A stretch of DNA of 64,000 nt from a virus. The translations under genes were made by a program, and so were the position numbers. The stretch covers positions 1-64,000 of the IMG/VR virus record IMGVR_UViG_3300031801_000798. One strand, written 5' to 3'. This document shows positions 5,463 through 30,642 of this stretch, in pieces (the first letter of the stretch is position 1; the number at the start of each line of letters is the position of its first letter). The notes under the pieces were generated by a model. It ran no database searches and was not told the DNA's origin. It was given only the letters and a program-made list of their open reading frames with translations.

Positions 5463-6834
5463 TAATAAATACCTTTAGGTCTTCTGGCGTACCGAGTCCC
5501 CACATTTTTTCTACGTTAAAAGTCTTAATCTTTTTGTTGTCTTCAATAGCTTCATTGTATACCGGACAGACATAAAATTCGCCATTGACTCTAGTGTTTC
5601 GCTCTATCATTTGTTCTGCGTACTTAACATAGTCACTCCCTCTCGACCAATAATATATACCAACCGTAGCGTTATTAGAGATTGGTTTCTTTTCTGCAAC
5701 CTCAGTCACAAAACCGTCTTCATCAGTTTTGGCAAAACTCCATTTGGGATGAACGGATTCAAAAGTTAGTATGCCACCATCGACTTCGTCAGCTTGCATT
5801 GAATACAAGAACTCGTTGCTGTCCCATTCAACAAACTGGTCAGAGTTTGCTGTAAGCAAAGGCTCATTATTGTCTATAAATTCTTTTGCTAATAGGGTTG
5901 TGCATGCGGCACCTTCGGTCAGCCCCTCTACTGGAATAATAACGTTGTTGGGGGATATAAGATTTAATAAGTACTGTAGATTGTATCTGTTGTAGTGTTC
6001 TTTTTGCACTATGAAAATATGTTGAGCATCAATATTGAGGTTCTCTACCACTAGTTGAATCATAGGTTTGCCATTGACTTCAATGAGCGGCTTGGGAAAA
6101 GTATAGCCAGCCTTTTCAAAGCGTGATCCAGCACCGGCCATTGGGATGAGAACTTTCATTTCTCCTCCTTGCCATTTGGGTTTAAACAGTTTCTTTTTAT
6201 TTTGCTTGTTAGCCTTATCTACTGCTTTGGACAGGTTGTTATACGTTATATCAGATAGTCCAGATACCCCCAACACATGAGCACCTGATTCATGAGCAGC
6301 CTTGCGACCAATGTGAGAATCTTCTATGATCAAACATTCTTTTGGGTTTACGTGAGCATCAACCATGCACGTCAAATAAATTTCTGAATGTGGCTTAGGA
6401 TAGAGAACGTCCTCATTTGAAAAGAATTTGTCTATATGATTTATATATCCAGCACAAGATAGCATCAATTCTAAACTGGATCTTATTGAATTTGATGCGC
6501 AGTATATTTTATATCCATCATCCTTTAAGTTTAAGATGGCGTTTTTTATATCTACATGGTCTTCTGGCCAAACCAAGTCCTCAATTACGTCAGCAGTGCA
6601 TTTCTGTTTCATTCTCCAGATTTTGTCATGGTATTCTTCCGGTAATCCCTTTTCCTCGGTCAGTTTGATTAGCTTCTTTCTTGTGGGAAGACCATCATAT
6701 GAAGCAAGATGCTCCTCCCTACTGATTACAAACTCTTCCCCGATAGAAGATAGTGCCCTATTAAGGGCTTCATAGTGTATCGATCTAGCCTCTACCAATA
6801 CACCGTCTAGATCAAAAATAATTACTTTTATCAT
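5434..6834 (-). CDS. HAD phosphatase / sugar nucleotidyltransferase fusion
   Basis: This 466-residue protein joins two domains. Residues 1-210 are a HAD hydrolase of the phosphoglycolate/beta-phosphoglucomutase type: DLDGVLVE holds the nucleophile aspartate, and IEDSHIGRKAA is the metal motif near residue 170. From about residue 226 a nucleotidyltransferase begins (MKVLIPMAGAGSRF, then FPKPLIEVNGKPM), the signature for dTTP/UTP-sugar pyrophosphorylases. One polypeptide could therefore dephosphorylate or isomerise a sugar phosphate and activate a sugar. Substrates are unknown. A Met at the domain junction could allow internal initiation, but the frame is continuous. Confidence 0.88.
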   Translation of the reverse strand: MIKVIIFDLDGVLVEARSIHYEALNRALSSIGEEFVISREEHLASYDGLPTRKKLIKLTEEKGLPEEYHDKIWRMKQKCTADVIEDLVWPEDHVDIKNAILNLKDDGYKIYCASNSIRSSLELMLSCAGYINHIDKFFSNEDVLYPKPHSEIYLTCMVDAHVNPKECLIIEDSHIGRKAAHESGAHVLGVSGLSDITYNNLSKAVDKANKQNKKKLFKPKWQGGEMKVLIPMAGAGSRFEKAGYTFPKPLIEVNGKPMIQLVVENLNIDAQHIFIVQKEHYNRYNLQYLLNLISPNNVIIPVEGLTEGAACTTLLAKEFIDNNEPLLTANSDQFVEWDSNEFLYSMQADEVDGGILTFESVHPKWSFAKTDEDGFVTEVAEKKPISNNATVGIYYWSRGSDYVKYAEQMIERNTRVNGEFYVCPVYNEAIEDNKKIKTFNVEKMWGLGTPEDLKVFINESNYSHSS

Positions 6835-15072: not shown

Positions 15073-16095
15073 CTATCCCCTAAAACATGCTTGAGAAGCT
15101 ACATCTAAAAATTGCTTCCAATTGTTTATGAATGTATCTTCTGAGAATTTTTCTAACACTGTTTCCCTAGCCCTCTTGCCCATTTCAATAGCAGTATCTT
15201 CATCATTTAGCAAAAGAACTAAATACTCTCTAAGCTCATCTTCATCATTGCTGATAAATCCGTTGACGCCATTTTCTATAATTTCTGGAATCATGCAGGT
15301 TGCGGTACTAACAACAGCACACTCACAGGCCATGGCCTCTAGCAGTGATGTTGGCACTGGAGAAATTGTAGAGGTATTTAAAAAGATTCTGCTGTTGGCG
15401 TAAAAGTTAGATAGTTCTTCGATACTTTCTGCTGGTTCTGACAACCCCGGAGTGTCACCAATAACATGAAATGGAAAATTCTTAATAACCCTTTGCCATA
15501 TTTCAAATCCGCAGCACCAATCTCGATTTATCCAATCGTTAACCACAGACAAAATATGATTTTCTCTCTCTTCTATTTGTTTGTCCGGTTTAAATAGCTT
15601 CGTATCTACTCCGTGGTGTATTACAAATGTATCGTTTCTATCTTCCCATCCCCATCTACCGAGACTGTATTCAGAAATAAACAGGTTAATATTTCCACGC
15701 ATCTCCCTTAAGGAGAACAGCGTATCATCCGGCCAATCAGGAACCGGAAGCGTGTGTTCTAAGCTGACTAGGGGTAGGTGCAGAGTATTTGCAATTTGTC
15801 TAGCTATTTGGTATTGTCCGAATTTATTCTGAGAAAGAACTATGTCGAAATCCAAGTGAAGGGGGATTTGTTTAGCGCCTAGACTTTCATCAAGCAGGTT
15901 GTAGTTTGGGGGTATTTTTCCGTAGTTTGTATTCCAGTTCTTTATTCCTTCGGCTCTGTATGCATAAAAATTATGACCAGTTTTTGCCAAGCTGGTTTCG
16001 TATCGCTCATGTGTAGGAAACGTGAGTATATTCAGAGGCTCACCCTCTTTATGAGTAGCCGCTTTTGTTAGAGATGATACAGAGCTAATCGACAT
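15073..16095 (-). CDS. GT4 family glycosyltransferase
   Basis: The frame begins with TTG at 16098, but the adjacent ATG at 16095 is the more likely start (340 residues). The C-terminal half has the family 4 signature: SLLEAMACECAVVST near residue 250, GVNGFI, then an amphipathic helix ending in ARETVLEKFS. The N-terminal half includes PLVSLEHT and NLFISEYS. Only the second glutamate of the EX7E motif is evident. It transfers a sugar from an NDP donor with retention. It overlaps the upstream GT4 by 11 bases. Confidence 0.88.
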   Translation of the reverse strand: MSISSVSSLTKAATHKEGEPLNILTFPTHERYETSLAKTGHNFYAYRAEGIKNWNTNYGKIPPNYNLLDESLGAKQIPLHLDFDIVLSQNKFGQYQIARQIANTLHLPLVSLEHTLPVPDWPDDTLFSLREMRGNINLFISEYSLGRWGWEDRNDTFVIHHGVDTKLFKPDKQIEERENHILSVVNDWINRDWCCGFEIWQRVIKNFPFHVIGDTPGLSEPAESIEELSNFYANSRIFLNTSTISPVPTSLLEAMACECAVVSTATCMIPEIIENGVNGFISNDEDELREYLVLLLNDEDTAIEMGKRARETVLEKFSEDTFINNWKQFLDVASQACFRG

Positions 16096-17209
16096 CAAGA
16101 GCTTTCTTTATTAGGTTCCCCACGGACTCATAAGAATATTCCTCAAGCCGTTCTCTTCCTTTTTCTTGCATAGACAAGAAGGCGTCACTGGTGTGAAGGC
16201 GATAGATGTACCTCATTGCCTGTTTTAAACCAATGGGGTCTATTGATTGCCAAGTTTCGTTGGCAGTATATAGATCGTCAAAAGTGTCCATCATTCCAAA
16301 CACAGGCTCCTCTCTGGAGTGAACCAGAACACCCTCCCCCCTATTTAGAAAATCTGCCATTCCTCCTACGTCTGTGCATATCGGAGTATTCCCGAAGCCC
16401 ATTGCGTCAAAGGCTGGAATACACCAAGCTTCGCCATAGCTAGGCATAACAAAACAATTGCAAGTAGCATGAAGTCTTCTGAGGGTTTCTTCATCTAGAC
16501 GATCCGTGATTATAAGATCTTCCTTGTAGTGCTCTAAACTTGGATATAGTTTTAAACCAGTTTTAACGTTATTACACATCTCTTTTACTTCCGCAGCGCA
16601 ATCATCTGAAGAAGTATTGTATTTGCTAGTTTTAATTACTATCGAAACTGGCTCATTAATTTTAAACTCGCTGTGAAAAGCTCTAACAAAAGCAGATAAA
16701 TTCTTTCTTCTGTTTAAGTCTCCGATGAAGTAAAAAACAAAATTGTTTTCTGAATCTGGTATATATATAGGTTCGTAGTCGCGTTTAAACTTAGATATAT
16801 CAGATGCGTGTGGTATGACACTTATCGGTATATTTACACCGCTTGACTTGGAGACCTCTACCATATGGTTGTTGATAACCCACGCCTCGTCCATCTGGTT
16901 GATACGATCAGGCCAGATAGACCACTTAAAACTATTTGTTTCCGTAGCGTATAGGGCAATATTTCTATCAAACCTTCCATTGTAGTCCATCATGTGGGGC
17001 AGGACATGCTGGATACAAACGTCGCATCCTCTACTGCTTTTGTTTTCCAATTCTATAATGCGTTCCGGCAACTCGGGGGGGTTAGAATTTAACTTGACGG
17101 ATCTCGGAACTACGTCTATTCCAACAGAGTCCATAGACAGTATGTAATCAATGGCTGCTTGAGACCAACCAGTACCATCTCTATAACATCCAATATATAA
17201 TACCTTCAT
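16085..17209 (-). CDS. GT4 family glycosyltransferase
   Basis: The ATG at 17209 is chosen over the TTG at 17239, because MKVLYIGCYRDGTGW is a natural GT4 N-terminus and the start makes an ATGA overlap. The 374-residue protein has FIGDLNRRKNL (donor-domain start), then PSYGEAWCIPAFDAMGFG near residue 280. There the usual EX7E motif appears as EX7D, followed by GNTPICTDVGG. The conservative substitution may be tolerated. It is probably a retaining glycosyltransferase using an NDP-hexose. It sits between two other GT4 genes. Confidence 0.87.
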   Translation of the reverse strand: MKVLYIGCYRDGTGWSQAAIDYILSMDSVGIDVVPRSVKLNSNPPELPERIIELENKSSRGCDVCIQHVLPHMMDYNGRFDRNIALYATETNSFKWSIWPDRINQMDEAWVINNHMVEVSKSSGVNIPISVIPHASDISKFKRDYEPIYIPDSENNFVFYFIGDLNRRKNLSAFVRAFHSEFKINEPVSIVIKTSKYNTSSDDCAAEVKEMCNNVKTGLKLYPSLEHYKEDLIITDRLDEETLRRLHATCNCFVMPSYGEAWCIPAFDAMGFGNTPICTDVGGMADFLNRGEGVLVHSREEPVFGMMDTFDDLYTANETWQSIDPIGLKQAMRYIYRLHTSDAFLSMQEKGRERLEEYSYESVGNLIKKALDVD

Positions 17210-18846
17210 CTTAGTAATTCTTGCCTCTTTTGCTCCCAAAAATTCCTACGAATGCATAAATCAAGAAGATAATTATAAGCAATTTCTTTGTCAAATTTTT
17301 CGAACTGTGGTCTGGCAAACTGCATGGAGTCCTCATTAAAGTACATCCCGCCAGTGCCCTCTAGATGGAATCCGTAATTAAGATCTCGTACCATTCTCGA
17401 TTCCATATACGAATTTAGCCTATCCGGCTCACCCAAAACATTCAAAATTAACCATTGAACATATTCTTTAGGGGGAAGGTCGTGGGGAACCGACGTTGAG
17501 GGAGTGTGAGTTCTTGGGGGAGATTTCCAAGTTTCTGATTCATGTCTTATTTCGATGCTATCAAAATAATTTTCCCAAACCTTAGCGGTGTTGTCCCACT
17601 GGTAGTATTTCTCAAAGTTTTTCTTTATCTTTAAGCCTACTTCATATCTTTCGTCATAGGATAAGCTGAAGAATTCCTCTATTTTTTTAGCTGCATATTC
17701 ATTATCTGGGACAGCCCTGTTGCACCCGGTTTCTAGCTCTTGGTATAAGGTTTTGACTCTCAGGGGTTCGCCTCCCAATCTTCTGATGACACTGGACATG
17801 GCAGAATAATCCACCGACATTACAGGTACGCCGCAAGCAGCAGCTTCTACTTGAGGCAGTCCAAACCCTTCACTATTAGCATACTGTAAATATAGATCAA
17901 AAGAGTTCATAATGTCAGACAGGAATTGATATGAGACTCCCTTCTGAACGCTGGCAAGTCCAGCAGAATGTCCATTACAAAACGGACATCTTGTTCTGGC
18001 ATCTGAAAAATACGAGGGAAAAGCGTTTTTGCATTCTACGCATACGTATGTCAGTATGATTTTACTGGACAGACCATATTGATTAATAAGTTTCGGAATG
18101 TCCCATCCTACATCAGGGAAGCTTGTATGACAGTAAAGATAAACATCCGATCTTCCAGAAGAATCTAGAAACATTCTGAAGGTCTTGAATAAATCTGGAA
18201 ATAATTTTCTCCTCTGATTTCTCATCACTGTTCCGATAACTATCGTATCGGGATCGAATCCCATATTTTTTTTATGCTCTCTTTTATCGGAAACCGGTCT
18301 GTAGGCCGCATCAGCAGACGGGGGGGCGCATCCAAGACAATTAATCTTGCCTCTCCCCTCTTGCTCCAATACGTCCCTGCCCCATTCGGAATAATTAAAC
18401 ACTCCGTCAGCATTAGCATATGTAGCCAGCCACTGTTCATTCTGTGGTTCAGCATCGACGGTTGGCATTATAGCCCAATGAAAATACTTTCTAAATGGAG
18501 ACCTTTCTTGATAATCTATCATCCAAAAATCCCTAATATCGAATACTATATCTGGCTGGAAGTCTAATAGCACCTGTTCAAACTTCCATTCCCCAAATTG
18601 GTTTGTACCCTTGGAGTGGTATTCGTTCAATTCTTTACTATTGTCTTTTTGCGGAGAGTTGGGATAGAACTTCCAAGATATTTCTCCAACTCTTGGATCA
18701 GTAGATTCTCCGTAGCTAGCAAACTCCGCGAGATCATATTTATCAGTTTGATAGAGGCGCTTCATGACCTCTCTGCCGTAAGTAGCATATCCTGTATTGA
18801 GATAGCTTGCTTCGCAACATAAAAGAATTTTTTTCTTCCTATTCAT
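17206..18846 (-). CDS. GT4 family glycosyltransferase with embedded zinc ribbon
   Basis: The 546-residue protein is a GT-B enzyme: SYLNTGYATYGREVMKRL at the N-terminus, IVIGTVMRNQRRKLFPDL opening the donor domain, and SEGFGLPQVEAAACGVPVM with an intact EX7E (E326, E334). Between the donor-domain strands sits a CX2C-X14-CX2C cluster (C269, C272, C287, C290; VCVECKN and RCPFCNG) that looks like a zinc ribbon. It is not a standard part of GT4 enzymes as I know them. The last 120 residues form an extra helical region. The stop overlaps the next start as ATGA; its start overlaps the sigma gene by eight bases. Confidence 0.85.
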   Translation of the reverse strand: MNRKKKILLCCEASYLNTGYATYGREVMKRLYQTDKYDLAEFASYGESTDPRVGEISWKFYPNSPQKDNSKELNEYHSKGTNQFGEWKFEQVLLDFQPDIVFDIRDFWMIDYQERSPFRKYFHWAIMPTVDAEPQNEQWLATYANADGVFNYSEWGRDVLEQEGRGKINCLGCAPPSADAAYRPVSDKREHKKNMGFDPDTIVIGTVMRNQRRKLFPDLFKTFRMFLDSSGRSDVYLYCHTSFPDVGWDIPKLINQYGLSSKIILTYVCVECKNAFPSYFSDARTRCPFCNGHSAGLASVQKGVSYQFLSDIMNSFDLYLQYANSEGFGLPQVEAAACGVPVMSVDYSAMSSVIRRLGGEPLRVKTLYQELETGCNRAVPDNEYAAKKIEEFFSLSYDERYEVGLKIKKNFEKYYQWDNTAKVWENYFDSIEIRHESETWKSPPRTHTPSTSVPHDLPPKEYVQWLILNVLGEPDRLNSYMESRMVRDLNYGFHLEGTGGMYFNEDSMQFARPQFEKFDKEIAYNYLLDLCIRRNFWEQKRQELLR

Positions 18847-19366
18847 CGCAGTGCGTTTCTCGTAACAGTTTTATTATTTGCCTGAATCTATTTTTCAGAG
18901 ACCCTTTAGAGCAACCAATTTCCTCTGCAATTTCTTTGTTGGTGTGATTCTCCATTTTTCTTTTCAAGATAAGTTTCTGTTCTTCCGTCAAAAGCCCATG
19001 TTCAATTTCAAAAAGATTTTCCTTTTCCAAATAATAATGCTTAGCATCTTCAGAAAGACTAGACATAAGATCGGTACTGTATACGATCTTAACCTTTTTG
19101 TTCTTCTTTAACGTCCTGTTAGAAAAGTTGATAAGCTCGTTTTTTATACACACCGAGGCAAAGGTCGAAAATTTTGCTTTGTTCTTATCATACTTTCTTA
19201 TGGACTTTAGCAAACCTATTAATCCAACCTGTATATAGTCTTCAAGAACACCTCTGTCGTCACTTGAAAAAATCAAGGCTTGAGAAACAACCAATCCATA
19301 ATGCTGTTGGATCAATTGTTCCTCAAGCTCTGATCTAGAGTTATTTAAATCATCATCTCTACCCAT
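18839..19366 (-). CDS. Sigma-70-family RNA polymerase sigma factor (phage type)
   Basis: From the ATG at 19366 the protein has about 175 residues. Region 2 is clear (EDYIQVGLIGLLKSIRKYD, then KFSTFASVCIKNELINF), which binds core polymerase and the -10 element. Region 4 ends the protein as a helix-turn-helix (NKEIAEEIGCSKGSLKNR). The layout resembles SigF/SigH-like small sigmas. Upstream in-frame ATG (19375) and TTG (19384) also exist. I prefer 19366 because it gives the ATGGGTAG overlap seen elsewhere in the window. It lies at the head of the glycan island, after ssb, and could direct late or glycan transcription. Confidence 0.87.
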   Translation of the reverse strand: MGRDDDLNNSRSELEEQLIQQHYGLVVSQALIFSSDDRGVLEDYIQVGLIGLLKSIRKYDKNKAKFSTFASVCIKNELINFSNRTLKKNKKVKIVYSTDLMSSLSEDAKHYYLEKENLFEIEHGLLTEEQKLILKRKMENHTNKEIAEEIGCSKGSLKNRFRQIIKLLRETHCDE

Positions 19367-19763
19367 CTTCACCATGATCTGCAACAGGCTCTACCTCATT
19401 GTCATTCTTCTCGGTTTCATTTTGCTTCTTATTATAGTTAAGAATCTTGAACTCTTTTACTCTAAACTTAATTTGATATCTTTTTACACCCTCACGATCT
19501 GTCCAGTTGTTTGGTCTAGCGGATGCGTGTACAAAGATTTCGTCTCCCTTTTCACTATATTTAGCAATAGTAACCGCCCCGGTGTCCCAAGCTTCAAAGT
19601 CAAAATAACTAACGTTTTTTTTCTTTTCTCCATCCCTTTCTCTGCGATATTCTGGAACAGCAAGTGTAAAAGTAACTAAGTCTACATCGTTTCTGGTCTT
19701 GATCAGCTGCGGATTGGCTACGAGTCTCCCAAAAAACCGGCAATCATTTGTAATGTTGTTCAT
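19359..19763 (-). CDS. ssb: Single-stranded DNA-binding protein
   Basis: The 134-residue protein has the bacterial SSB OB-fold pattern: FFGRLVANPQL, VTFTLAVPEYRR, SYFDFEAWDTGA, then EIFVHASARPNNWTD and YQIKFRVKEF. The tail is acidic (NDNEVEP, HGEDG) but lacks the typical DDDIPF ending, so partner binding may differ from the host. It coats ssDNA during replication and recombination, next to the phage polymerase genes. Its stop is inside the sigma-factor start. A possible -10 element lies about 40 bases upstream. Confidence 0.92.
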   Translation of the reverse strand: MNNITNDCRFFGRLVANPQLIKTRNDVDLVTFTLAVPEYRRERDGEKKKNVSYFDFEAWDTGAVTIAKYSEKGDEIFVHASARPNNWTDREGVKRYQIKFRVKEFKILNYNKKQNETEKNDNEVEPVADHGEDG

Positions 19764-19802
19764 AGACTTTTCCTTTTTTCAAAAGCAACGTTTTGTAGTA
19801 AT

Positions 19803-19808
19803 ACTATA
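19803..19808 (-). promoter_or_regulatory. Possible -10 element upstream of ssb
   Basis: In the 56-base gap between the dnaE C-terminal gene and ssb the minus strand reads CAGGTATAGTATTAC, with TATAGT at 19808-19803. No good -35 hexamer sits 17 bases upstream. It lies just after a stop codon, like the stronger elements at 37949 and 47699. Weak evidence. Confidence 0.3.
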
Positions 19809-19819
19809 CCTGTGGGGTC

Positions 19820-21412
19820 TTATATTTGCCACACTCTTTCGACTATTAGACTGCTGTCGGATCTATATTTACCCCTTTTGGATTCACCCCCATAGATCAC
19901 TACAGTATTTCCTTCGTACAACAGATTCCTGTATTTTTCCCACTGATCAGCAAAAATGGCTACGTTGTCTAGGGGACTTGTGTGATCTTCAACACACAAA
20001 AAAGCCATATCTTTCCCTTTGTTTTGACCTTTCTTCAGAGTGTATGGGCGTACACTGTTGATTGAAACGGCTAGGGCCACGTCTTTTACTTTACCGCCGT
20101 TCAAGAAGTCTTTACATGTTGCGTTGGCAGAACTGGTATCACAAGAGTCCACCTTTGAATAGGTAATTGGAACCCCTAAGTAGTTCTGCTCAATGCCAGC
20201 AACCCAATCTGGTGTGTCCTCTAGGGAATATGCCGGTTTTCTTGTTTGTTTTATCAAATCTTTGACTATCTCGCTTCTTTTGTCATTAAAGGTTCCGCCA
20301 CCCATTTTCTTAGTTGGTCGCAGGGATAAGAGAGCGTCTTTAAGATTGTCCCATTGGCAGTGCTGGTCGTATACCCAAAGCCTCTCTTTGTTGGTTAGCT
20401 TTGTCCAAGTGTCAAACTCATCAAGCATTTTATTTCTGCTGATCTTGTTGGCAGATAAAACCCCAACAGAAACCATCGCAATAACCGTGGAAGATCCGAT
20501 CTTGTCAGAAAACCTAACTAAAAACTCATACCAGTTCCACTCTCCGATTTTTTTATCTAGCTTGTCCTCTTCCTCTTCTAATTTTTGTTTTAGTTTCTGA
20601 ATTTGGTTAACCCCTATTGATTTAATGTCGGTCAAACCAAAATGGATTTTACCGTTGATGATGCAGGTATCTTCATTCATCTCTTCTATACATGGGGGCA
20701 GTATAAATATATCATTAGTCTTGGCGTCTGATACCAATTCTCTAATTTCTCTTTGTGGATCTGGTTTGTTTTTAGCATGTCTCAAACAATGGCAATAAAA
20801 TTCGACTGGATAATGCGCTTTAGCATAAGCAGACCAATAGCCACAGATAGCATAGCTAACAGCATGGGACTTATTAAAAGCATAACGACTAGACTTTTCG
20901 ATCCATGAGAATATCTCTTCCGCCGCTTCTTTAGAAACAATATTTTCATTTTCAGAGCCTTTGATGAACTCTTTTTTGATTTTAGACATGAGATCAGCTT
21001 TCTTTTTGCCAATAGCTTTTCTTAAATCGTCGGCTTGTTGAAGATCAAATCCAGCAACCTTCTGAGATATTTTCATAGATTGCTCTTGATATACAAGAAC
21101 TCCTTGAGTCTGATTAAGAATGGGTTCTAAAGACTCGTGAATATAAGTTACCTCTTCTTCTCCATTCTTACGGTCAACGTAATGCTGAGTCATGGACTTT
21201 CCATCGACAATAGCTTTTAAACAACCGGGACGAAGCAGAGCAGTTAAAGCTGCCAGTTCCTCAAGATTTCTAGGACGAACACGTTTAGACCAAGACTTCC
21301 CAAGGCTGCTTTCCAATTGAAAAACACCCTTGGTTTTTCCCTGACAGATAAGCTCCCATGTTAGGCTGTCATCGTAATCAATATTGTAGACATCAAACGT
21401 ATGTTTTTCCAT
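19820..21412 (-). CDS. dnaE: DNA polymerase III alpha subunit, C-terminal part (split gene)
   Basis: From the ATG at 21412 this 530-residue protein matches DnaE from just after the third catalytic aspartate. It has DYDDSLTWELICQGKTKGVF followed by LES (like the bacterial FQLES block), ALLRPG, YQEQSMKISQKVAGF, LRKAIGKKK and AFNKSHAVSYA, then HhH-like and OB-type sequence to the end (VVIYGGESKRG). The catalytic aspartates are in the partner gene at 22318-24222. The combined length (about 1164) matches a whole DnaE. The frame extends to a TTG at 21448, but 21412 has AAGG nine bases upstream and less overlap with the exonuclease gene. It should assemble with the N-terminal part without intein splicing. 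Confidence 0.9.
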   Translation of the reverse strand: MEKHTFDVYNIDYDDSLTWELICQGKTKGVFQLESSLGKSWSKRVRPRNLEELAALTALLRPGCLKAIVDGKSMTQHYVDRKNGEEEVTYIHESLEPILNQTQGVLVYQEQSMKISQKVAGFDLQQADDLRKAIGKKKADLMSKIKKEFIKGSENENIVSKEAAEEIFSWIEKSSRYAFNKSHAVSYAICGYWSAYAKAHYPVEFYCHCLRHAKNKPDPQREIRELVSDAKTNDIFILPPCIEEMNEDTCIINGKIHFGLTDIKSIGVNQIQKLKQKLEEEEDKLDKKIGEWNWYEFLVRFSDKIGSSTVIAMVSVGVLSANKISRNKMLDEFDTWTKLTNKERLWVYDQHCQWDNLKDALLSLRPTKKMGGGTFNDKRSEIVKDLIKQTRKPAYSLEDTPDWVAGIEQNYLGVPITYSKVDSCDTSSANATCKDFLNGGKVKDVALAVSINSVRPYTLKKGQNKGKDMAFLCVEDHTSPLDNVAIFADQWEKYRNLLYEGNTVVIYGGESKRGKYRSDSSLIVERVWQI

Positions 21413-22079
21413 CTGCAAAAGCCTTTTCAAAATGTACTTTTTCTGCAAATTTGCGCTGCATTTTCATGAACCTAATCATAATATTAGCCGTATCTTTTAT
21501 GTCTTGAAGTGCATCATGGGCATTTTCTTTAGACAGGCCAAAGTAATCTCTGAGAGAATCTAGGCTGAATCTTTTGATATCTGGATTATTTTCCAGCCAG
21601 CCCCAGACTAGATTCATTACATCGACCCTGTGAATTTTATTGAACAGCGTCTGTCTCCCCGTTTTCTTGTCAACGGGTCCATACTGTTGACACATTCTGT
21701 CGGCAATAATCAAATCAAATCCGTTTATATTATACCCGGCAGGTATGGGGGCAAAGTAGGGGGTCTTTTTCCAGTTATATTTGTTTACAAAGTTAGAGAA
21801 CTTCCCCCAAACCTGTTTAGGGGATGGAGCCTTTTTAAGGTTGGCTCTAGTCTTTCTTGTAATTGCCAATGCCTCATCTTCTATGGGATCAAGACCCATT
21901 TCTATAGCCTTGTCGTCATCCAGAATGGGCCGGATCTCGCTATTAAAATATCCTTTCGGCTGTACTGTAAGCTTTCTTCCGTGAATAGCAACCGCTGCAA
22001 TTTGAGTAGGTTGGGTTTTGTGAGGATCTCTGCTTCCAGTTTCAAAGTCAAATACAATTATGTCATGTGCCGAAGGCAT
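21393..22079 (-). CDS. DnaQ-like 3'-5' DEDDh exonuclease
   Basis: The 228-residue protein has the three exonuclease motifs: VFDFETGS near residue 9 (D11, E13), GFDLIIAD in Exo II, and NAHDALQDIKDT in Exo III with the H-x4-D that defines the DEDDh group. It is longer than a bare nuclease fold because of an insert after Exo I. It lies between the two halves of dnaE, linked by TAATG upstream and a 20-base overlap downstream. The natural inference is that it proofreads for the phage polymerase. RNase T-like RNA trimming is a less likely alternative. Confidence 0.87.
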   Translation of the reverse strand: MPSAHDIIVFDFETGSRDPHKTQPTQIAAVAIHGRKLTVQPKGYFNSEIRPILDDDKAIEMGLDPIEDEALAITRKTRANLKKAPSPKQVWGKFSNFVNKYNWKKTPYFAPIPAGYNINGFDLIIADRMCQQYGPVDKKTGRQTLFNKIHRVDVMNLVWGWLENNPDIKRFSLDSLRDYFGLSKENAHDALQDIKDTANIMIRFMKMQRKFAEKVHFEKAFADGKTYV

Positions 22080-22321
22080 TATTTGTCTCCCTTGGTTCTT
22101 AAAAGTTTATGTTTGATGTTCAAAAATTTAGATATCGCATCATTGTAATTTGAATATAGCCTACTAAATCTATATCTGCTATCTTCACAATGAACCTGAT
22201 ACTTAATACCTCCCCTCGTGGTACAAAAATCGTTAAGGCAACATATACTTAGAGAGTTCCACTCCTCGTATTCGCCGTCTTCCAGTTTGTTTCGAATCTT
22301 TTCCCTGTACGAAGTGCTCAT
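22079..22321 (-). CDS. Small protein between the polymerase halves, unknown
   Basis: This 80-residue protein has no family I recognise. It is moderately basic with an internal ICCLNDFC cysteine cluster and a helical C-terminus (YNDAISKFLNIKHKLL). ATGA overlaps the dnaE N-terminal gene and TAATG leads into the exonuclease gene, so it is certainly translated with them. Its position between the two polymerase parts makes a role in holding the split enzyme or the exonuclease together possible; that is speculation. Confidence 0.68.
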   Translation of the reverse strand: MSTSYREKIRNKLEDGEYEEWNSLSICCLNDFCTTRGGIKYQVHCEDSRYRFSRLYSNYNDAISKFLNIKHKLLRTKGDK

Positions 22322-24222
22322 TGTTCTAATTGATCCCTGACTCCCATGAGTTTATCTAATAATGACACGCCAAGTATATCAAACTTGACATGTCCCATAG
22401 CCTCTAAATCTGTCATCTCCATTCCAGCAATTTTATCAGAACCCTTTTTGTCTCTGACCATAGGACAAACGCTACTAAGGTTGTGGGACGAGATCACTAC
22501 CCCAGCAGCATGTTTTCCTTGAGATTTAAATGTTCCTTCTATGCGCATGGCTTGTTCAAATAGCTTTGAGTATTCTCCCTCCAACTCTCCAGCATCATTC
22601 ATCCTACAATAGTCTCTAAGAGAATCCGGTTGATTAATCAAGGACCACTTAATCACCGATGGCTCATCCATGTCAATCAACAGGTCAGAGATTTCGTGTT
22701 CGTGAGGAAGGCTCTTAGTGATGATATTCATCTCGTCAAAAGAACACGCCTCGTTCATCCTCAAGACCTCCTTTAGGGCGCTTCGTCCTTGTAGCCTTCC
22801 AAAGGTTACCATCTGACCGACCTTTTCTGAGCCATACTTAGACCTGATATAATCAATTACCTCGTCCCGCTTGGTAGCGGGTACGTCAATGTCAATATCT
22901 GGCAATGATACATGGTCTGCTGTGTTGCGTCCAGCATTGTAAAACCTCTCAAAGAGAAGACCAAATTCAATCGGGTCCACCTCCGTAATTCCTACAAGAT
23001 ATGAAATTAGACATCCCGCCGCCGACCCCCTGCCCGGACCCGGTAGCCAGCCGCAATCTTTAACCCTGTTAACTATGTCTCTGACAATAAGAAAATAACC
23101 AGATAAATTAGCCCGACTGATAACATCTAGCTCCTGCTTTACCCTTTCAGTGTACAGTTTGTAGGATTCATCAGACGCAAGTTTTCCGATAGCGTTTAAG
23201 CGATCCTTCCATCCACCGCGACACAGTTCCCGAAGAAAATCTTCTTCTTCTACCTCGTCTGGACAAGAGAATTTTGGAAGCATTGGCTTGCTAAGAATGC
23301 TATAATCCTCACACATGTCTGCTATCATAATTGAATTAGCTAATTCAGCTTCTGTGTGAAGATTTTTCATCTCCTCTAGCGAGGGGATGTGGAAGTTATT
23401 TGATTTTAAGAATCCTGCAAACCCTACATTTTCATTGTTTTTGACTTTGCTTTTAATGTTTCTTAGAGTTGTTTTCATAGCAGAGCATAGCAAGATGCTA
23501 TGATCTATCGCGTCTGCCTTGGTTGGATAATGAGAATCGGCAGTAGCTACAGACGGAAACTTATATTTTTTTGCTACATATCTCAGACCTTGAGCCACTA
23601 GTTTAGCAGCCGGTGAGTTTTCTTCGTCAATACACTGTATCTCGATAAGAAAGTTCTCTTTACCAAAGATATCCTTATACAAGTTTGCCTTATTAAGAAC
23701 TTTTAATTCCCAGTCTGGATCAATATATTCCTTAACAACCATCTCGGTCTCTGCGCGATAGGCCTCTTTGAAGTCGGTAAAAATAATGTTTGCCAAATCG
23801 CTGCCAAGATGTCCACTAAATGCTATTAGATTTCCATCTGCGTACTCGCTCAGTAAATTTAGATCTAGTCTGGGTTTAAAATAAAACACGTCATCGTCAT
23901 TACTTCTGGAACTCGCCTCTATTAACCTATCCCAACCCGACTTATTCTTTGCAAGAACCACAAGATGACTTAGCGATCTATTCTCCTTCTCTTGAATCCG
24001 ACAGTCTTCTTGACTAAGATAGAACTCGCAACCCATTATGGGCTTGATATTCTTTTTCTTCATAGCCCCTGTAAAAGATACCGCTCCAGAAATTGTGCCG
24101 TGATCAGTAATCGCACAAGCGTTGTAGCCCAGATCGGCGCACCTATCCGCTACTTGCTGTGGCTTAGACAGGCCGTCTAACAAACTGTAGTGTGTGTGTA
24201 GGTGTAGTGGAACCCAACTCAT
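22318..24222 (-). CDS. dnaE: DNA polymerase III alpha subunit, N-terminal part (split gene)
   Basis: The 634-residue protein contains the PHP domain (PLHLHTHYSLLDG, H7 and H9), GPGRGSAAG at 395-403, and the palm catalytic residues PDIDID (D442, D444) and KFDILG (D615). It then stops soon after KFDILG, where bacterial DnaE continues toward FQLES. The missing part is the gene at 19820-21412. No intein-like block is present at either end, so the two chains must associate as separate proteins. The split is not an obvious frameshift, because two intact genes lie between the halves. Main replicative polymerase of this phage. Confidence 0.92.
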   Translation of the reverse strand: MSWVPLHLHTHYSLLDGLSKPQQVADRCADLGYNACAITDHGTISGAVSFTGAMKKKNIKPIMGCEFYLSQEDCRIQEKENRSLSHLVVLAKNKSGWDRLIEASSRSNDDDVFYFKPRLDLNLLSEYADGNLIAFSGHLGSDLANIIFTDFKEAYRAETEMVVKEYIDPDWELKVLNKANLYKDIFGKENFLIEIQCIDEENSPAAKLVAQGLRYVAKKYKFPSVATADSHYPTKADAIDHSILLCSAMKTTLRNIKSKVKNNENVGFAGFLKSNNFHIPSLEEMKNLHTEAELANSIMIADMCEDYSILSKPMLPKFSCPDEVEEEDFLRELCRGGWKDRLNAIGKLASDESYKLYTERVKQELDVISRANLSGYFLIVRDIVNRVKDCGWLPGPGRGSAAGCLISYLVGITEVDPIEFGLLFERFYNAGRNTADHVSLPDIDIDVPATKRDEVIDYIRSKYGSEKVGQMVTFGRLQGRSALKEVLRMNEACSFDEMNIITKSLPHEHEISDLLIDMDEPSVIKWSLINQPDSLRDYCRMNDAGELEGEYSKLFEQAMRIEGTFKSQGKHAAGVVISSHNLSSVCPMVRDKKGSDKIAGMEMTDLEAMGHVKFDILGVSLLDKLMGVRDQLEQ

Positions 24223-25220
24223 TTTTTCAATTTTCCTCCACCGCTTCCATAGGTAGAAAGCTTTGTCAAATTTCCATATTCAGATACAACTTTATTCACG
24301 CCCTTCTTCTTGATTTCGTCACGCATAAACTGGCATACGCTTTTATTGGTCCCCTCCTGATTTTCACTAAACTTGCACAGCTTACGACATTTCCAGTGTC
24401 GGTTTTCATCACATAGAAGTTTTGGGCGTTTTGAATTCTTGATGTATTGAAATTTTTTCTTCAAGATAGATTCTGCTTTAACATAATCCTGATCATCAAA
24501 GCACATGGAAAAGAGGCCACCGCTGTTAATGTAGAAGATGCTAACACCGAAATCGTAATCCGGGTACATGTTCTTGAGGGCATAGTAGTAGAGCAGTAGC
24601 TGCGTGTCGCTCTGCAAAGATTCGAGAGTCTTCTCCTCACCCGTTGCCCAATTTATGCGCTTTCCGGTTTTGTAGTCAAGGATTTCGTAATATTTTTTAT
24701 CGTGTTTGACTATTAGATCGACTGTTCCTTTAATGGCCAGTCTGCCTTCAATTTTTTCACCGCCTATATTGTAGCAGTACTTGGCCCAAGGCTCATCTAT
24801 TTCGAAATCAAAGTACTCTTCAGTGGCAAACACGTTTTGATTTCTGGGATCCAGCAACCCATCATTATATTCTATAGCCTTGTGAACCCATTTGGTACAG
24901 GTCTTCAGGCTGGAGTTGTCTAGATCGACATCTGGTTCGTGACTGGTGTAATACTCAAAAGCTTTGGATGTAATTTTTTCTATGTTGTCACAATCTTCGA
25001 GACTCAATCGACCTAACTCGCCGTCTGTAAAACTCTTATTGCCTCTGTTGAGGCATAATTTTTTATCCCCCAGAACCTGAAGTGCTTTGTGGGTAATCGT
25101 CCCCATTAAAGCCTTTTTATTAGTTTTGTCTTGAAACGACAAATTATATTGCAAGAAAAACTTTTGCTCGCAGAACTCAAGAGTACTAAGACTGCTGCTT
25201 CTTATGTAGCATACTATCAT
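24219..25220 (-). CDS. PD-(D/E)XK nuclease, Cas4/RecB-like with cysteine cluster
   Basis: From the ATG at 25220 (GGAAAA just upstream) the protein has about 333 residues; an ATG at 25268 exists but lies deep in the upstream gene. A cysteine near residue 17 (EFCEQKF) and a C-terminal set (KCRKLCKF and a later C) form the four-cysteine pattern of Cas4/AddB-type Fe-S nucleases. The active site is KGTVDLIV followed by EILDYKTGK, with QLLLYYYAL as the QxxxY-type motif. It likely processes DNA ends during recombination or replication. The stop overlaps the dnaE N-terminal start by ATGA. Confidence 0.82.
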   Translation of the reverse strand: MIVCYIRSSSLSTLEFCEQKFFLQYNLSFQDKTNKKALMGTITHKALQVLGDKKLCLNRGNKSFTDGELGRLSLEDCDNIEKITSKAFEYYTSHEPDVDLDNSSLKTCTKWVHKAIEYNDGLLDPRNQNVFATEEYFDFEIDEPWAKYCYNIGGEKIEGRLAIKGTVDLIVKHDKKYYEILDYKTGKRINWATGEEKTLESLQSDTQLLLYYYALKNMYPDYDFGVSIFYINSGGLFSMCFDDQDYVKAESILKKKFQYIKNSKRPKLLCDENRHWKCRKLCKFSENQEGTNKSVCQFMRDEIKKKGVNKVVSEYGNLTKLSTYGSGGGKLKK

Positions 25221-25734
25221 GTATATTTTCCAGTTCTTTTTCTTCCATAATATAATTAAGGGGTCCATCCCTGTACAAGCGACGCTTGGTTTTTTTTACA
25301 ACCTCGTTCCTCTTAGCGGAGCCGACGATCCAAACATTTGAATAGTCACTCTTGTCAACATAACATAGAACGTAATAATCTATTTCCTTGTTCGGTCTGT
25401 ACGCTGGTACTCTCAGGTAAGGATCTTTCCAATAGGTAGTTGTCTTGACTTCGATGTTTCCGTATCCCTTGATGGTATTGTCTACACCGGCATCGCCATG
25501 TTCTTGAAAAATAGTCTTGTCCATCTCTACGCCAAAAAAATGGGCCACGGCAGCTTCACCTACCGCTCCAACAATATGCACATCCTCGGAGCTTTTGTAT
25601 GTATTGTTGTAACTCTTAGATCCAAACTTTTCCTTTTTGGCATCTCTTTGTTTAGCTATTTCCATAGCCTCTTTAAGTTTCTCTTGTGGTAGATCAATTT
25701 TTACCCTATTATTCATTGTCTTCGCTTCGTTCAT
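25186..25734 (-). CDS. PD-(D/E)XK-like nuclease or restriction-type protein
   Basis: I choose the ATG at 25734 (GGAAG six bases before it; 182 residues) over the longer frame starting at 25791 inside the cupin gene. VGAVGEAAVAHFFG is a helix typical of the start of nuclease cores, then GDAGVDNTIKGYGNIEVKTT supplies an aspartate and an E-x-K, the PD-(D/E)XK catalytic set. YYVLCYVDKSDYSNVWIVG fits the next strands. A DNA-cutting role in replication or host DNA degradation is likely but the target is unknown. It overlaps the Cas4-like gene by 35 bases. Confidence 0.68.
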   Translation of the reverse strand: MNEAKTMNNRVKIDLPQEKLKEAMEIAKQRDAKKEKFGSKSYNNTYKSSEDVHIVGAVGEAAVAHFFGVEMDKTIFQEHGDAGVDNTIKGYGNIEVKTTTYWKDPYLRVPAYRPNKEIDYYVLCYVDKSDYSNVWIVGSAKRNEVVKKTKRRLYRDGPLNYIMEEKELENIHDSMLHKKQQS

Positions 25735-26095: not shown

Positions 26096-26874
26096 TATCC
26101 CACCTTAGACTGCAACCATCCCCACTCTTTGAGAACGTCCATTAAAGCCCTATTGGCTTCATCCATATTTAAGTTAGCGTTATCAATCACATGATCATAT
26201 TTTTCGTATTCATTTGTCAAAGCTGTTTCGCTTTCATGTCCATCATCATATGGGCATCTAGTCAGCCTGATTACTCTTCCTTCAGCATTTTTTATAGCGT
26301 CTATCTCATTAGGAAATCTACAGTCAGAAACAATAGCAAGTTCAGCGTCACTTTCTTTTACTCTATCTAGACAGGACGATGTCCATACATCAGGCTTAAT
26401 TGCTCTGCAAACATCAGTGCCAAACAGCTGTAAGAATTCTCTGGCTGTCAAAAACTTGTCGTCGCCCAAGTCTCTGTTCAGTAGCTTTTTTATGAACTTC
26501 CTCTTCACGGGGATTTTTGTGTTCTTATACTCATCAGAACCGTAGCATTGCTGCTCAGTAAGTCCAAATAGATGCATAGCCATGAGCTTGAGGGGGTCTG
26601 CAAAACTAAAAGCTTTTACGTATGGCCAAACCATCTGCGAGGCATAGTCAACAAACTCGTTATCCAGCCTGAAAACATCCAATACCCCTACGCCCTCCTC
26701 TTCGTCGCCCTTTTCATTGCTGGTCATGGCGTTGACAAGAAGATCTCCCTCGTCATTCATCATAAATTTGGTTACGACATCGTGAAGTCTGAGTTGGTAT
26801 CCGTGTAAAAAGTTTGTACAAGTGGTTTTTCCACTCTGTTTTGCTCCAGATATACCTAGAATTTTCTGATCCAT
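26095..26874 (-). CDS. Deoxynucleoside monophosphate kinase
   Basis: The 259-residue protein has a P-loop SGAKQSGKTT at 9-18 and FSFADPLKLMAMHLFGL followed by an REFLQLFGTDVCR block and VSDCRFPNEIDAIK. These are the characteristic segments of phage T4 gp1-like dNMP kinases. The enzyme phosphorylates dNMPs to dNDPs from degraded host DNA or phage-made dCMP/dUMP products. It ends with TAATG into the cupin gene and starts with TAATG from the primase gene, so it belongs to the replication operon. Confidence 0.88.
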   Translation of the reverse strand: MDQKILGISGAKQSGKTTCTNFLHGYQLRLHDVVTKFMMNDEGDLLVNAMTSNEKGDEEEGVGVLDVFRLDNEFVDYASQMVWPYVKAFSFADPLKLMAMHLFGLTEQQCYGSDEYKNTKIPVKRKFIKKLLNRDLGDDKFLTAREFLQLFGTDVCRAIKPDVWTSSCLDRVKESDAELAIVSDCRFPNEIDAIKNAEGRVIRLTRCPYDDGHESETALTNEYEKYDHVIDNANLNMDEANRALMDVLKEWGWLQSKVG

Positions 26875-27920
26875 TATATCATTCCCTCAAGTTGTGGTTT
26901 TATTTCTTCGTTTATTTCAGCGACAGTCATTTCGCCAATGTCGTCTTTGGAAAACTCAGGACAGATGATATGGAACAGCCTGTCACATTTATGGATAATG
27001 GACTGCTTCGCCTTGTCCCCAGCCTCATCATTATCTGTGAGGATGACTACATTCAAGGCTCCAGAAGTCTCAAGAATCCTAGCCTGACCATCGCTCAAAC
27101 TAGACCCAAACATTCCCACTGAGTTTCTTATGCCCGCCTCGTATAGTCTCCAAACGTCTCCCTGTCCCTCTACCAGTATGACAGTTTTGGTGTTTCTTAT
27201 GGCGTCTCTTGCTAGCCAGTAACCATACAAATGAGCACCGGAATTAAAGTGTTTGGAATTTATCCACTTGTTTCCATTGCTATTTTCATGTGAGACCCTA
27301 CCAACACAACCAATCATGAATTTATGGTCATCATCATAAACCGGGGCAACAATTCTGTTTTTCATTTGTTTAGACTGATCTGTGCAGATCCCGATATCAA
27401 AAACGTCCAAGGTTTTTTCGTCGTATCCCCTGTCTGTGTAATAAGCCACCGGTCTAGACAGGGTATCTCTCACGTCGCTTCTCCTCACCAAATACTTTGT
27501 TCTTGTGGCGTCTGGGTAAACCTTTTCAGACAATTCTATGAATTTTTTCAGTTTAAAATTCTTGCCCTCTTGCTCTAGTTCTTGTAAAGAAGAGGATGTA
27601 AAATTAATAGCAAACTCAACTGCTTCAGGAAAAGAAACCTCTTCGCCTCTCTGCGCTGTTAATAAGCCTCTGATCAATCCTATCGGAGTGGGTACGAATT
27701 TGCTCTCACAGCCATGTGTCCAACATCTCCAGTATCCAAAGAATTGATCCCTAGTTGTGGTTACGGTAAAAGCTTGCGGGTTATCGGCCCCATCATGAAT
27801 GGGGCATACAGAAGTAATTCTGTCGTACTGTTCAAAATATCTTACTCCAAATAGATCAAAAAGATCTGTAATTTTTTCTGCTATCTTGTTTGATAAAACT
27901 ATCAGTTGATTCTTATCCAT
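26874..27920 (-). CDS. DNA primase, DnaG/CHC2-Toprim type
   Basis: The 348-residue protein has a zinc-binding N-terminal motif VCPIHDGADNP then RCWTHGCE (C39, H42, C66, C71), and a Toprim domain with VILVEGQGDVWRLYEAG and VILTDNDEAGDKAKQ. The length is about half of bacterial DnaG: the catalytic core is present but the helicase-binding C-terminal domain appears minimal. It makes RNA primers for the phage polymerase. The neighbouring dnaB-type helicase (TAATG) would be its partner. Confidence 0.92.
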   Translation of the reverse strand: MDKNQLIVLSNKIAEKITDLFDLFGVRYFEQYDRITSVCPIHDGADNPQAFTVTTTRDQFFGYWRCWTHGCESKFVPTPIGLIRGLLTAQRGEEVSFPEAVEFAINFTSSSLQELEQEGKNFKLKKFIELSEKVYPDATRTKYLVRRSDVRDTLSRPVAYYTDRGYDEKTLDVFDIGICTDQSKQMKNRIVAPVYDDDHKFMIGCVGRVSHENSNGNKWINSKHFNSGAHLYGYWLARDAIRNTKTVILVEGQGDVWRLYEAGIRNSVGMFGSSLSDGQARILETSGALNVVILTDNDEAGDKAKQSIIHKCDRLFHIICPEFSKDDIGEMTVAEINEEIKPQLEGMI

Positions 27921-29377
27921 TAAAATGGGCTTTCTTTGTCATCTAAATTATCGATGCTAAAACCTGACTCTTTAGTATGCGTATCGAATTTAATCTCATT
28001 TCTCGTTTCTCTTTCTTCCACCCTAGCTACCTCGCCCCTCATTGACATGTTTATATAATCATAATCGTCTAAGCCGGAACCATGTCTGCTTACAATTGGA
28101 ATCAACTTTCTGTTGCCGCTTTCTCCCTGATCCTCTGCGATTTCTTCATCCGACTTGTTCTTAAAAATAGAAAAGCTGCTACAAAGCCAAATGAGTCTAT
28201 CGGAACCGCTGACAACATCGGTGCTTTCTTTTGTGATCCCGTCTCTGTTTAACTGGACAAAAGCTAAACAGGGGCAGTCATACTGGACGCAAAAATTGTG
28301 TAGCTGTGTAATTTGAAATCCTAAAACCTGAAACTCTTTCATGCTGTCATTTATCTGATTCGAATGCATGAGTTTAAGATAATCATATATAATCATACAG
28401 TCATTTACACGTCCATTTTCATCGTAGCCTACGTTCTTGACTATCCATCTTCTGATTATGGACAAGGTTTCCTCAAAAGCCTTCCCGGCAATTGTCATGT
28501 AGCTAAGTGGGATCTCTTTAAATTTTTGCGTGGCCTGTTGAACTTTTTCTTTGTCGCATGCACTTATGGAAAATTTTCCCGTAGAGATATCATTGATGTT
28601 AACACCGCTGAAATTTCCTAGGATGCGATTGAAGTGATCTTCTTTGGACATCTCAGTGTCCAATAATAGAACGGGAATATCTAAATTCTCAGCAATGTTT
28701 ACTGCAATGTTATCGGCCATCATGCTCTTGCCCACCTTGGGCCTAGCCGCTATAAGGTCTACGCATTTTCTCCTAAAGCCGCCACCTATAGCAGTGTCGT
28801 ATCTCAAAAAACCGCTGCTAAGCCCAAGCATATCAGTGGGATTATCTTCTAGATAGGCAACGTAATCCTCAACTTCTTCACCCAATACAGAAGGCTTATT
28901 TTCTACAGAATGATTAAGGGCTGCGGAAAGGTCAAAAATTGGCCCTTCTGCTATGCTGAGAATTTCATCAATAGACTCTTCTCCGGTAACGTCACCGATG
29001 TCAGAATTTATCTTGCGTATCTTGGAGCGTATATCTCTTGCTACATCTAGCTTTTTGAGTTTTACTGCATGCTTTCTAACATTTTCTAATTCGATTTCAA
29101 AGCTTGCAAGCGCTTTGATATGATCCGAAGAGATTTTTTCATTGAAAAAATCATGCAACCCCAAGTCTTCCGCAGCGCTTAATATAGAAGGAAGGTCTAT
29201 GCTAGAACTTTTACTAAGAACACGCTTTAGACAGGTGTATATTATCTGGTTTTCTTCTAGGGAAAAAGTATTGGTGTCGATGATATCATCAACATCAATA
29301 AACGCATCCGCACCGTGTTGAAAAATTCCCGATAGAACTGCCCTTTCAGACGACGGATTGTTAATTAGCTTGACCAT
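27920..29377 (-). CDS. dnaB: DnaB-type replicative DNA helicase
   Basis: The 485-residue protein has the N-terminal helical domain of DnaB (SERAVLSGIF near residue 10), a Walker A ARPKVGKS at 211-218, LLLDTEMSKE in the H1a/DE region, MIIYDYLKLM with the Walker B aspartate, and FVQLNRDG in H3, followed by an SGSDR block in H4. It unwinds DNA ahead of the split PolIII-type polymerase as a hexamer. The primase gene follows directly with a TAATG junction. No intein or unusual insertion is seen. Confidence 0.93.
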   Translation of the reverse strand: MVKLINNPSSERAVLSGIFQHGADAFIDVDDIIDTNTFSLEENQIIYTCLKRVLSKSSSIDLPSILSAAEDLGLHDFFNEKISSDHIKALASFEIELENVRKHAVKLKKLDVARDIRSKIRKINSDIGDVTGEESIDEILSIAEGPIFDLSAALNHSVENKPSVLGEEVEDYVAYLEDNPTDMLGLSSGFLRYDTAIGGGFRRKCVDLIAARPKVGKSMMADNIAVNIAENLDIPVLLLDTEMSKEDHFNRILGNFSGVNINDISTGKFSISACDKEKVQQATQKFKEIPLSYMTIAGKAFEETLSIIRRWIVKNVGYDENGRVNDCMIIYDYLKLMHSNQINDSMKEFQVLGFQITQLHNFCVQYDCPCLAFVQLNRDGITKESTDVVSGSDRLIWLCSSFSIFKNKSDEEIAEDQGESGNRKLIPIVSRHGSGLDDYDYINMSMRGEVARVEERETRNEIKFDTHTKESGFSIDNLDDKESPF

Positions 29378-29778: not shown

Positions 29779-30263
29779 GAGTATGTTTTCCTCTTGCTTA
29801 GCTCCATTAATGTATCAGCCATTTTTCTCATGTCTCTAATTTTATCTGTCAACCAAATGACTCTGGCTTCTGAAACCATTTTTGCATCAAATATTTTTTT
29901 AGCAAACTCATCCTGTTCGATAATAGTGAAATACTTCTGCTCCCACTTCATATATTTGCTGTAAGATTCCGCTTGTTTTGCGACGATCTTATTAAGCTGG
30001 CTGTCACACCAGTACAACTTAGCCTGATGTTTATTGAAAACTGATTGGACATAACTACAGTAGGCATATATGCAGTAAGCTTTTTCGCAACAGTCTTCGG
30101 AGGTCAAGGAATTTACTTCCACTCCAGTAAAATTAAGCGTTTCCTCAACTTCTGGATTTATCTGTATTCGTTGAACATCTTCCCCTATGATATAGGAATC
30201 AATAGACTTGATAAAATCGTTCAACTCATCTATCGCGGATCTCTGTTTTCCATTCATCGTCAT
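29775..30263 (-). CDS. Helical phage protein of unknown function
   Basis: This 162-residue protein is predominantly alpha-helical, with a cysteine-rich middle (DCCEKAYCIYAYCSYVQ) and a charged C-terminal helix (WLTDKIRDMRKMADTLM). No family is identified. It sits between a nuclease-like gene and the zinc-ribbon gene in the replication block, with a 38-base overlap on its 5' side and ATGA on its 3' side. A second ATG six bases in could also start it. Possibly a replication or recombination mediator. Confidence 0.65.
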   Translation of the reverse strand: MTMNGKQRSAIDELNDFIKSIDSYIIGEDVQRIQINPEVEETLNFTGVEVNSLTSEDCCEKAYCIYAYCSYVQSVFNKHQAKLYWCDSQLNKIVAKQAESYSKYMKWEQKYFTIIEQDEFAKKIFDAKMVSEARVIWLTDKIRDMRKMADTLMELSKRKTYS

Positions 30264-30642
30264 CGCCTGTGTATTTTAAGGTAACAATATCAATCTTGTT
30301 CAGTCTGCACCAGCGCATCTTATCTCTATCTCTCGCCTGAGATTTATAGAAACCACTTTTTGTTTTATGGTAGAAATCAACGAACTCATAATGTTGCCTG
30401 CCGTGAACTTCTACTATAAGATTTCTTGAGGGTATAAAAAAATCGGCAAACAAAATTGAAGGCCGGGTGGTGGTGTTGCTGCCGGGGAGAGAAACTTCTT
30501 CCAAGATTATATCACGCCGGAACAGATCACGCAAGATTAATCTTGTTCTTTTGTGAAGTTTAGATTGTCTCCCCCTCTTTGCTTTACTCTTTTTAGGAAG
30601 CCTCCATTTTTTTTCTCTACCGTCGAAACCAGTAACAATCAA
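30226..30642 (-). CDS. DUF559/VSR-like endonuclease-fold protein (TTG start)
   Basis: The 138-residue protein starts at TTG 30642, which overlaps the recA stop as TTGA and has AGGAG five bases upstream; no suitable ATG is nearby. A very basic N-terminus (WRLPKKSKAKRGRQSKLHKR) precedes LFADFFIPSRNLIVEVHGRQH, the D-x(n)-E-x-H-G pattern of VSR/DUF559-type PD-(D/E)XK nucleases (D67, E78). It may be a nicking or repair nuclease working with RecA. A homing endonuclease is an alternative, as free-standing phage members exist. Confidence 0.7.
   Translation of the reverse strand: MIVTGFDGREKKWRLPKKSKAKRGRQSKLHKRTRLILRDLFRRDIILEEVSLPGSNTTTRPSILFADFFIPSRNLIVEVHGRQHYEFVDFYHKTKSGFYKSQARDRDKMRWCRLNKIDIVTLKYTGDDDEWKTEIRDR

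Follow-up and report, generated by a model that had tools for sequence, protein, structure and literature searches.

A probable replicative DnaE of uncultured phages encoded in two conserved genes around a DnaQ-like exonuclease

A 64,000-nucleotide stretch of the IMG/VR virus record IMGVR_UViG_3300031801_000798 (here called the window; the full record of 67,003 bases is a phage contig, possibly a fragment) was found to contain the gene for a C-family DNA polymerase (DnaE, Pol III alpha) in two pieces, an N-half and a C-half, with a gene for a DEDDh exonuclease (X) and one for an 80-residue protein (S) lying between them (Table 1). The original prediction, made from the letters of the window alone, had described these four open reading frames (ORFs) and their order, and both were borne out by an ORF check. 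We consider it highly probable that the locus represents a phage replicative polymerase that is made as two polypeptides and held together by non-covalent association, with the exonuclease as a proofreader in trans. What carries this interpretation is the domain architecture of the two products, the conservation of the arrangement, the selection acting on the genes, the lack of any backup polymerase among the records that were searched and the lack of any detectable intein or intron.

Table 1. Split polymerase cassette and other features of the window.
Feature	Position	Strand	Remarks
N-half of DnaE, 634 residues	22318..24222	-	PHP domain and palm/thumb (PF07733); catalytic D442, D444, D615
S, 80-residue protein	22079..22321	-	conserved family at this position; predicted alpha-beta4-alpha fold
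X, DEDDh 3'-5' exonuclease (RNase_T, DnaQ-like), 228 residues	21393..22079	-	D11, E13, D122, H188, D193
C-half of DnaE, 530 residues from ATG 21412	19820..21412	-	fingers (PF17657), HHH_6, OB fold
PDDEXK (Cas4/Dna2-like) nuclease	24219..25268	-	directly upstream of N-half, 4-nucleotide overlap; syntenic neighbour
DnaG-like primase (Toprim)	26874..27920	-	replication block shared with split DnaE
DnaB-like replicative helicase	27920..29377	-	replication block shared with split DnaE
SSB (OB fold)	19359..19763	-	downstream of C-half; synteny in most relatives
Sigma-70-type factor (regions 2 and 4), phage-encoded	18839-19384	-	adjoins SSB
HNH homing-endonuclease-like gene	30226-30642	-	phrog_9084
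Endonuclease-family gene	37527-37913	-	phrog_452
Sugar-modification genes	3073-6834, 15073-18846, 51908-53005	-	
665-residue protein	43912-45909	-	trypsin-like peptidase domain (PF13365)

By domain content the locus is assigned to the C family, and the order of domains across the two products, PHP, palm/thumb, fingers, helix-hairpin-helix (HhH) and OB fold, is canonical for DnaE. On the phrog_405 profile the N-half matches positions 42-614 and the C-half positions 613-1071 with no gap, on the solved chain of Taq alpha the matches cover residues 7-626 and 643-927, and on E. coli alpha the N-half matches up to residue 562 and the C-half from 574. An AlphaFold model of the C-half (predicted local distance difference test, pLDDT, of 89.7) aligns from residue 574 of E. 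coli alpha, 606-607 of the M. tuberculosis protein and 636-638 of the Taq protein onward, with Z about 21-23. The spacing between the motifs KFDILG and VFQLES amounts to 51 residues if the C-half is read from the ATG at 21412, and to 50-51 in intact bacterial DnaE; the alternative start TTG 21448, the mechanical first start in the ORF list, gives a product of 542 residues. From the consecutive matches and this spacing the break maps to the linker between palm and fingers, at about residues 563-573 of E. coli alpha, with no residues lost, so that both products are made up of complete domains. The expectation that the C-half resumes before FQLES and that the summed length is that of a normal DnaE was thus confirmed. 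That the N-half ends right after the third catalytic aspartate is correct insofar as the end is near KFDILG, but slightly loose, as the protein continues for another 19 residues. The C-half starts some five residues before the alignable region. In the N-half of the window all nine PHP metal-ligand positions are kept, one of them with a change from C to H.

The junctions within the cassette overlap as anticipated, by four nucleotides between N-half and S (ATGA), by one between S and X (TAATG) and by 20 between X and the C-half if the latter starts at ATG 21412. An AAGGGAG motif is located about 8 nucleotides upstream of the ATG of X, and AAGG precedes ATG 21412; overlaps and motifs together are consistent with translational coupling of the four genes. 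The two halves are in different reading frames and nearly 0.9 kb apart with conserved coding genes between them, in agreement with the earlier view that this is not a simple frameshift. X matches the RNase_T family (PF00929, E=7.7e-14) and shows the pattern DxE..D..HxxxxD, and because of its fixed position and its conservation it is probably the proofreading subunit of the polymerase. The nearest X-like exonuclease in cultured phages, at about 30%, is that of Bacteroides phage DAC19 and its relatives, and no DnaE was detectable near the exonuclease of this type.

The proteins of the S family have about 70-90 residues, with C27, Q42, V43, A62 and F66 invariant in an alignment of 52 members. The predicted model (pLDDT 85) has the order alpha-beta-beta-beta-beta-alpha, and searches returned no match in Pfam, PHROGs or PDB sequences and none that was convincing among BFVD and PDB folds. 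A likeness to AP2 was seen by eye only and is unsupported. In the L099 clade (17 contigs) S is absent and the N-half directly overlaps or abuts X, and in L077, L134 and L135 the slot is taken by different small ORFs. As judged from these lineages S is dispensable for the split and was gained or lost independently of it.

Relatives were collected by scans of IMG/VR and genome contigs that were confirmed with tblastn and followed by ORF analysis. The search for the same split that had been suggested at the outset yielded 113 distinct contigs from many metagenomes with both halves: 95 contigs (98 loci, repeats removed), 15 further IMG/VR contigs, two contigs from metagenome-assembled genomes (MAGs) and the window itself. 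All 113 encode N-half and C-half as distinct ORFs on either side of the exonuclease; for L066 the script called no ORF for X, which was seen there as a sequence match only. As many contigs represent near-identical populations, conservation was counted in a non-redundant set of 32 members that have N, C, X and helicase and differ by >8% in the N-half. Within the split clade N-half identity goes down to about 44%, and none of the intact DnaE proteins tested, from phages or from bacteria, exceeds 35%. A maximum-likelihood tree that also included intact DnaE from both sources recovers the split clade as monophyletic on a long stem, with a support of 100 in the Shimodaira-Hasegawa-like approximate likelihood ratio test (SH-aLRT); note that this tree was made with a quick method and has some long branches elsewhere. 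The phages of this large clade are uncultured and for the most part marine, and the split cassette is conserved among them.

The scan of bacterial genomes gave mostly intact bacterial DnaE, with the phage-type split cassette present on the two MAG contigs, L134 (Lokiarchaeota) and L135 (Flavobacteriales), so that no firm host can be named. Both are probably phage contigs that were mis-binned or are host-associated, and for L135 the binning is a possible hint at the host. Three other interrupted genes from the scan, L188 and L202 with in-frame stops and L169 with a frame break, are otherwise bacterial dnaE of different architecture and were set aside; their interruptions are probably sequencing errors or pseudogenes.

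The ratio of nonsynonymous to synonymous substitution rates (dN/dS), taken only where synonymous sites are unsaturated, is 0.013-0.165 for the N-half, 0.019-0.069 for the C-half, 0.007-0.045 for X and 0.038-0.12 for S, by which measure purifying selection acts on each of the four genes. The three catalytic aspartates of the polymerase (DxD and the third) are invariant in 32/32 members of the non-redundant set, and so are the five DEDDh residues of X. Pairwise distances of the two halves are correlated with r=0.92, those against the helicase with 0.67 and 0.81, and the partial correlation of the halves given the helicase is 0.86. The records of 17 relatives (77-154 kb) contain exactly one match each to PF07733 and PF17657; no intact or second DnaE occurs in the clade or elsewhere in these 17 records, and PolA and PolB are missing from the 14 records of 92-154 kb. 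Some observations nevertheless weigh against the proposed role as replicase. Linkage accounts for part of the co-divergence of the halves, a beta-clamp gene was not found in the same 14 records, and all records of the relatives are linear and possibly incomplete, so that a backup polymerase could still have gone unseen.

The PHP domain behaves differently from the catalytic centers of polymerase and exonuclease. All nine ligands are kept in 15 of the 32 non-redundant members, the window included, and the site is degraded in the remaining 17 (e.g. L013-L081, N-half residues 1-235), where the ligands disappear as a group, in most cases along with a PHP-region stretch of about 100 residues. The DEDDh exonuclease is intact in all members, PHP-degraded ones included, and the simplest reading would be that X is the proofreader and that the PHP site is dispensable.

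Extra sequence in the cassette was seen among 97 loci in 32 gap instances, 14 between N-half and X and 18 between X and the C-half. Nucleases are represented by HNH_3 (L043), Endonuclease VII (L060, L066) and a T5orf172/GIY-YIG-like protein (L023), with further HNH-like inserts judged by eye in L042, L045 and L077, and other inserts are sugar epimerases, a UDP-glucose dehydrogenase, a TylF-type methyltransferase and a weak match to a sulfotransferase. The break in the window itself holds no endonuclease. In several relatives the inserts between X and the C-half start with an LKRxLQMExxTF-like peptide that corresponds to the start of the C-half in the window (L084:10780-11550, L041:7273-7968, L060:7613-8014) in otherwise unrelated genes, which indicates that inserted genes have taken over the part of the C-half start that overlaps the exonuclease gene. 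Mobile elements seem to target the locus, so that an origin as genes in pieces is plausible but unproven. Within the C-half of L072 (7920-10310, plus strand) an intein (PF14890, E=1.3e-10) is inserted in frame; it has about 230-250 residues and an HNH-like segment and sits at the conserved RPGC|LRA motif of the fingers. At the same position L077 (7887-9665, plus strand) has a zinc-ribbon-like insertion of ~40 residues with weak Zn_ribbon matches. An N-terminal extension of the C-half of ~35 residues with a CGCxF motif precedes the fingers in L007, L009, L056, L072, L077, L134 and L135 and is absent from the window.

For the assembly of the polymerase we propose that the N-half would contribute PHP, palm and thumb, and with them the three catalytic aspartates, that the C-half would bring in fingers, tandem HhH region and OB fold, and that the halves fold as complementary domains and associate without being joined covalently. 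Through the overlapping start and stop codons ribosomes on one mRNA would make N-half, S, exonuclease and C-half in sequence, which may favor a balanced, co-translational assembly, and the DEDDh exonuclease would proofread in trans. Alternatively, the split could be undone at the level of protein or RNA, by a split intein, a self-splicing intron or frameshifting, to give a single full-length DnaE. Inteins do occur in this gene family, as in the L072 C-half. In cyanobacteria, DnaE-n and DnaE-c are likewise encoded by two genes, broken at the FNKSH region and joined into one chain by inteins. MIJ3 has a split PolB with a putative split intein (PMC6892783). In the window, however, no intein domain was detected at the N-half end or the C-half start, as the original prediction had stated, and with the N-half ending so shortly after the third aspartate and the C-half starting so close to the alignable region there is no room for intein halves. 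FNKSH is well inside the C-half, and the break, well upstream of it, therefore differs from the cyanobacterial one. An Rfam scan of positions 19000-25300 gave no intron match at E<=1, overlaps at every junction leave no non-coding space, and S and X, which separate halves in different frames, are conserved as coding genes and subject to purifying selection. Restoration of a single chain is thus very improbable.

Only a little less improbable is that either half, or both, is a relic or has taken on a role of its own, the N-half for instance as a stand-alone PHP protein, with replication left to host Pol III or another phage enzyme. The loss of the PHP metal site in about half of the relatives does indicate that part of the N-half can decay, but the invariant polymerase residues, the strong purifying selection on both halves and their strictly one-to-one retention argue against this, as do the co-located helicase, primase and SSB and the lack of PolA and PolB in the 14 records. 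A chimeric metagenome contig, or an artefact at the population level, was conceivable as the window is from the record of an uncultured virus, but is refuted by the comparative data to the point of being negligible: the gene order is the same in all 113 contigs, which come from many metagenomes, include two MAG contigs and span about 40-97% identity. Of the objections foreseen at the outset, assembly error fails for this reason, and an intact dnaE in relatives fails because no such copy exists in the clade or the relatives' records examined. The two-polypeptide polymerase with a trans-acting proofreader remains the preferred explanation. It seems rather doubtful that, in addition, the order of the four genes is kept as a programme for the co-translational assembly of a multi-subunit replicase, in which the exonuclease, and S in most lineages, would bridge the halves and a takeover of proofreading would have freed the PHP site for decay in roughly half of the lineages, making the split functional and not tolerated. 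As for its origin, the split may have begun with an insertion into the palm-fingers linker, followed by turnover of the inserted genes. That the first insert was a free-standing homing endonuclease, later replaced by exonuclease and S, a genes-in-pieces history comparable to that of nrdA in phage Aeh1, is compatible with the preferred explanation and a reasonable possibility, although not one that we would favor outright. The gap inserts with their HNH, Endonuclease VII and GIY-YIG-like nucleases are in line with it, as is the HNH homing-endonuclease-like gene of the window phage, but other inserts are sugar-modifying enzymes and methyltransferases, so that the site may simply tolerate insertions, and the ancestral state with an endonuclease alone between the halves was not found.

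The view that such an arrangement is unusual was overstated, as split phage polymerases are known, cultured phages with a split DnaE exist, and one of them is broken at the same junction. What the original prediction did not bring out is that the genome belongs to a phage, that the clade is broad and that the cassette has received insertions repeatedly, homing-endonuclease-like genes among them. In the T4-like Aeromonas phages 25 and 44RR the replicative polymerase is also encoded without inteins in two genes, gp43A and gp43B, associated with a homing endonuclease, and the products from phage 25 co-purify with polymerase activity (PMC2988022); unlike the enzyme described here, this is a family B polymerase of another fold with no conserved exonuclease gene between its parts. 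The split NrdA of Aeh1, linked to the homing endonuclease gene mobE, is likewise an essential phage enzyme in pieces and fully active as two pieces without splicing (PMC2988022), but it is a different enzyme and is known from one phage, not from an old clade. In jumbo phages of group 2.2 the two genes for a minimal Pol III alpha lie far from each other (PMC7824862), again a C-family core as two stand-alone proteins, cut between NTP-binding and DNA-binding parts. That core lacks the other Pol III domains and coexists with a family B replicase, in contrast to the full-length DnaE of the window clade, which is encoded in one operon and is the sole polymerase found. In OM43 phages a DNA polymerase is split around a small ORF (PMC10580990). 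Closest in position is gp20/gp19/gp18 of Rossellomorea phage phiT1 (PV767480), with the same break in the palm-fingers linker and a 49-residue ORF in between, but with no exonuclease between the halves. Since this protein groups with the intact DnaE of a Moorella phage its split is a separate event, and going by this grouping the same linker has probably been broken at least twice. Other cultured phages have DnaE in two genes broken between PHP and palm (Chivey gp57/58, Weasels2 gp101/102) or just before DxD (Cellulophaga phi13:1 gp38/39, Staphylococcus SPbeta-like 2), all with no exonuclease between. The window locus follows the pattern of genes in pieces, in that a normally single protein is present as two conserved, complementary ORFs with no splicing element. 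New in comparison with the known split phage polymerases are the age of the split, its fixed break, the conserved inner exonuclease and the decay of the PHP domain; a literature search of incomplete coverage gave no description of an exonuclease-containing split DnaE cassette fixed in an old clade.

The clade offers a natural and long-lived two-piece replicative C-family polymerase with a single fixed break in a broad range of uncultured phages. If the halves do assemble as proposed, palm and fingers need no covalent link, and the junction is a ready-made split point for engineered polymerases. The system allows us to test how replicase subunits and proofreader assemble, and why the separate DEDDh exonuclease always stays when the metal site of the PHP domain is lost in part of the lineages.

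Nearly all large ORFs of the window are on the minus strand. Further phage genes in the record code for RIIA, RIIB, a UvsX-like recombinase, ribonucleotide reductase, dUTPase and PhoH, and a tRNA search of the record found none. The 665-residue protein with the peptidase domain has no PHROG match. Genes for sugar modification are numerous and comprise at least four glycosyltransferases, an asparagine-synthase/amidotransferase and a fusion of HAD and nucleotidyltransferase domains.

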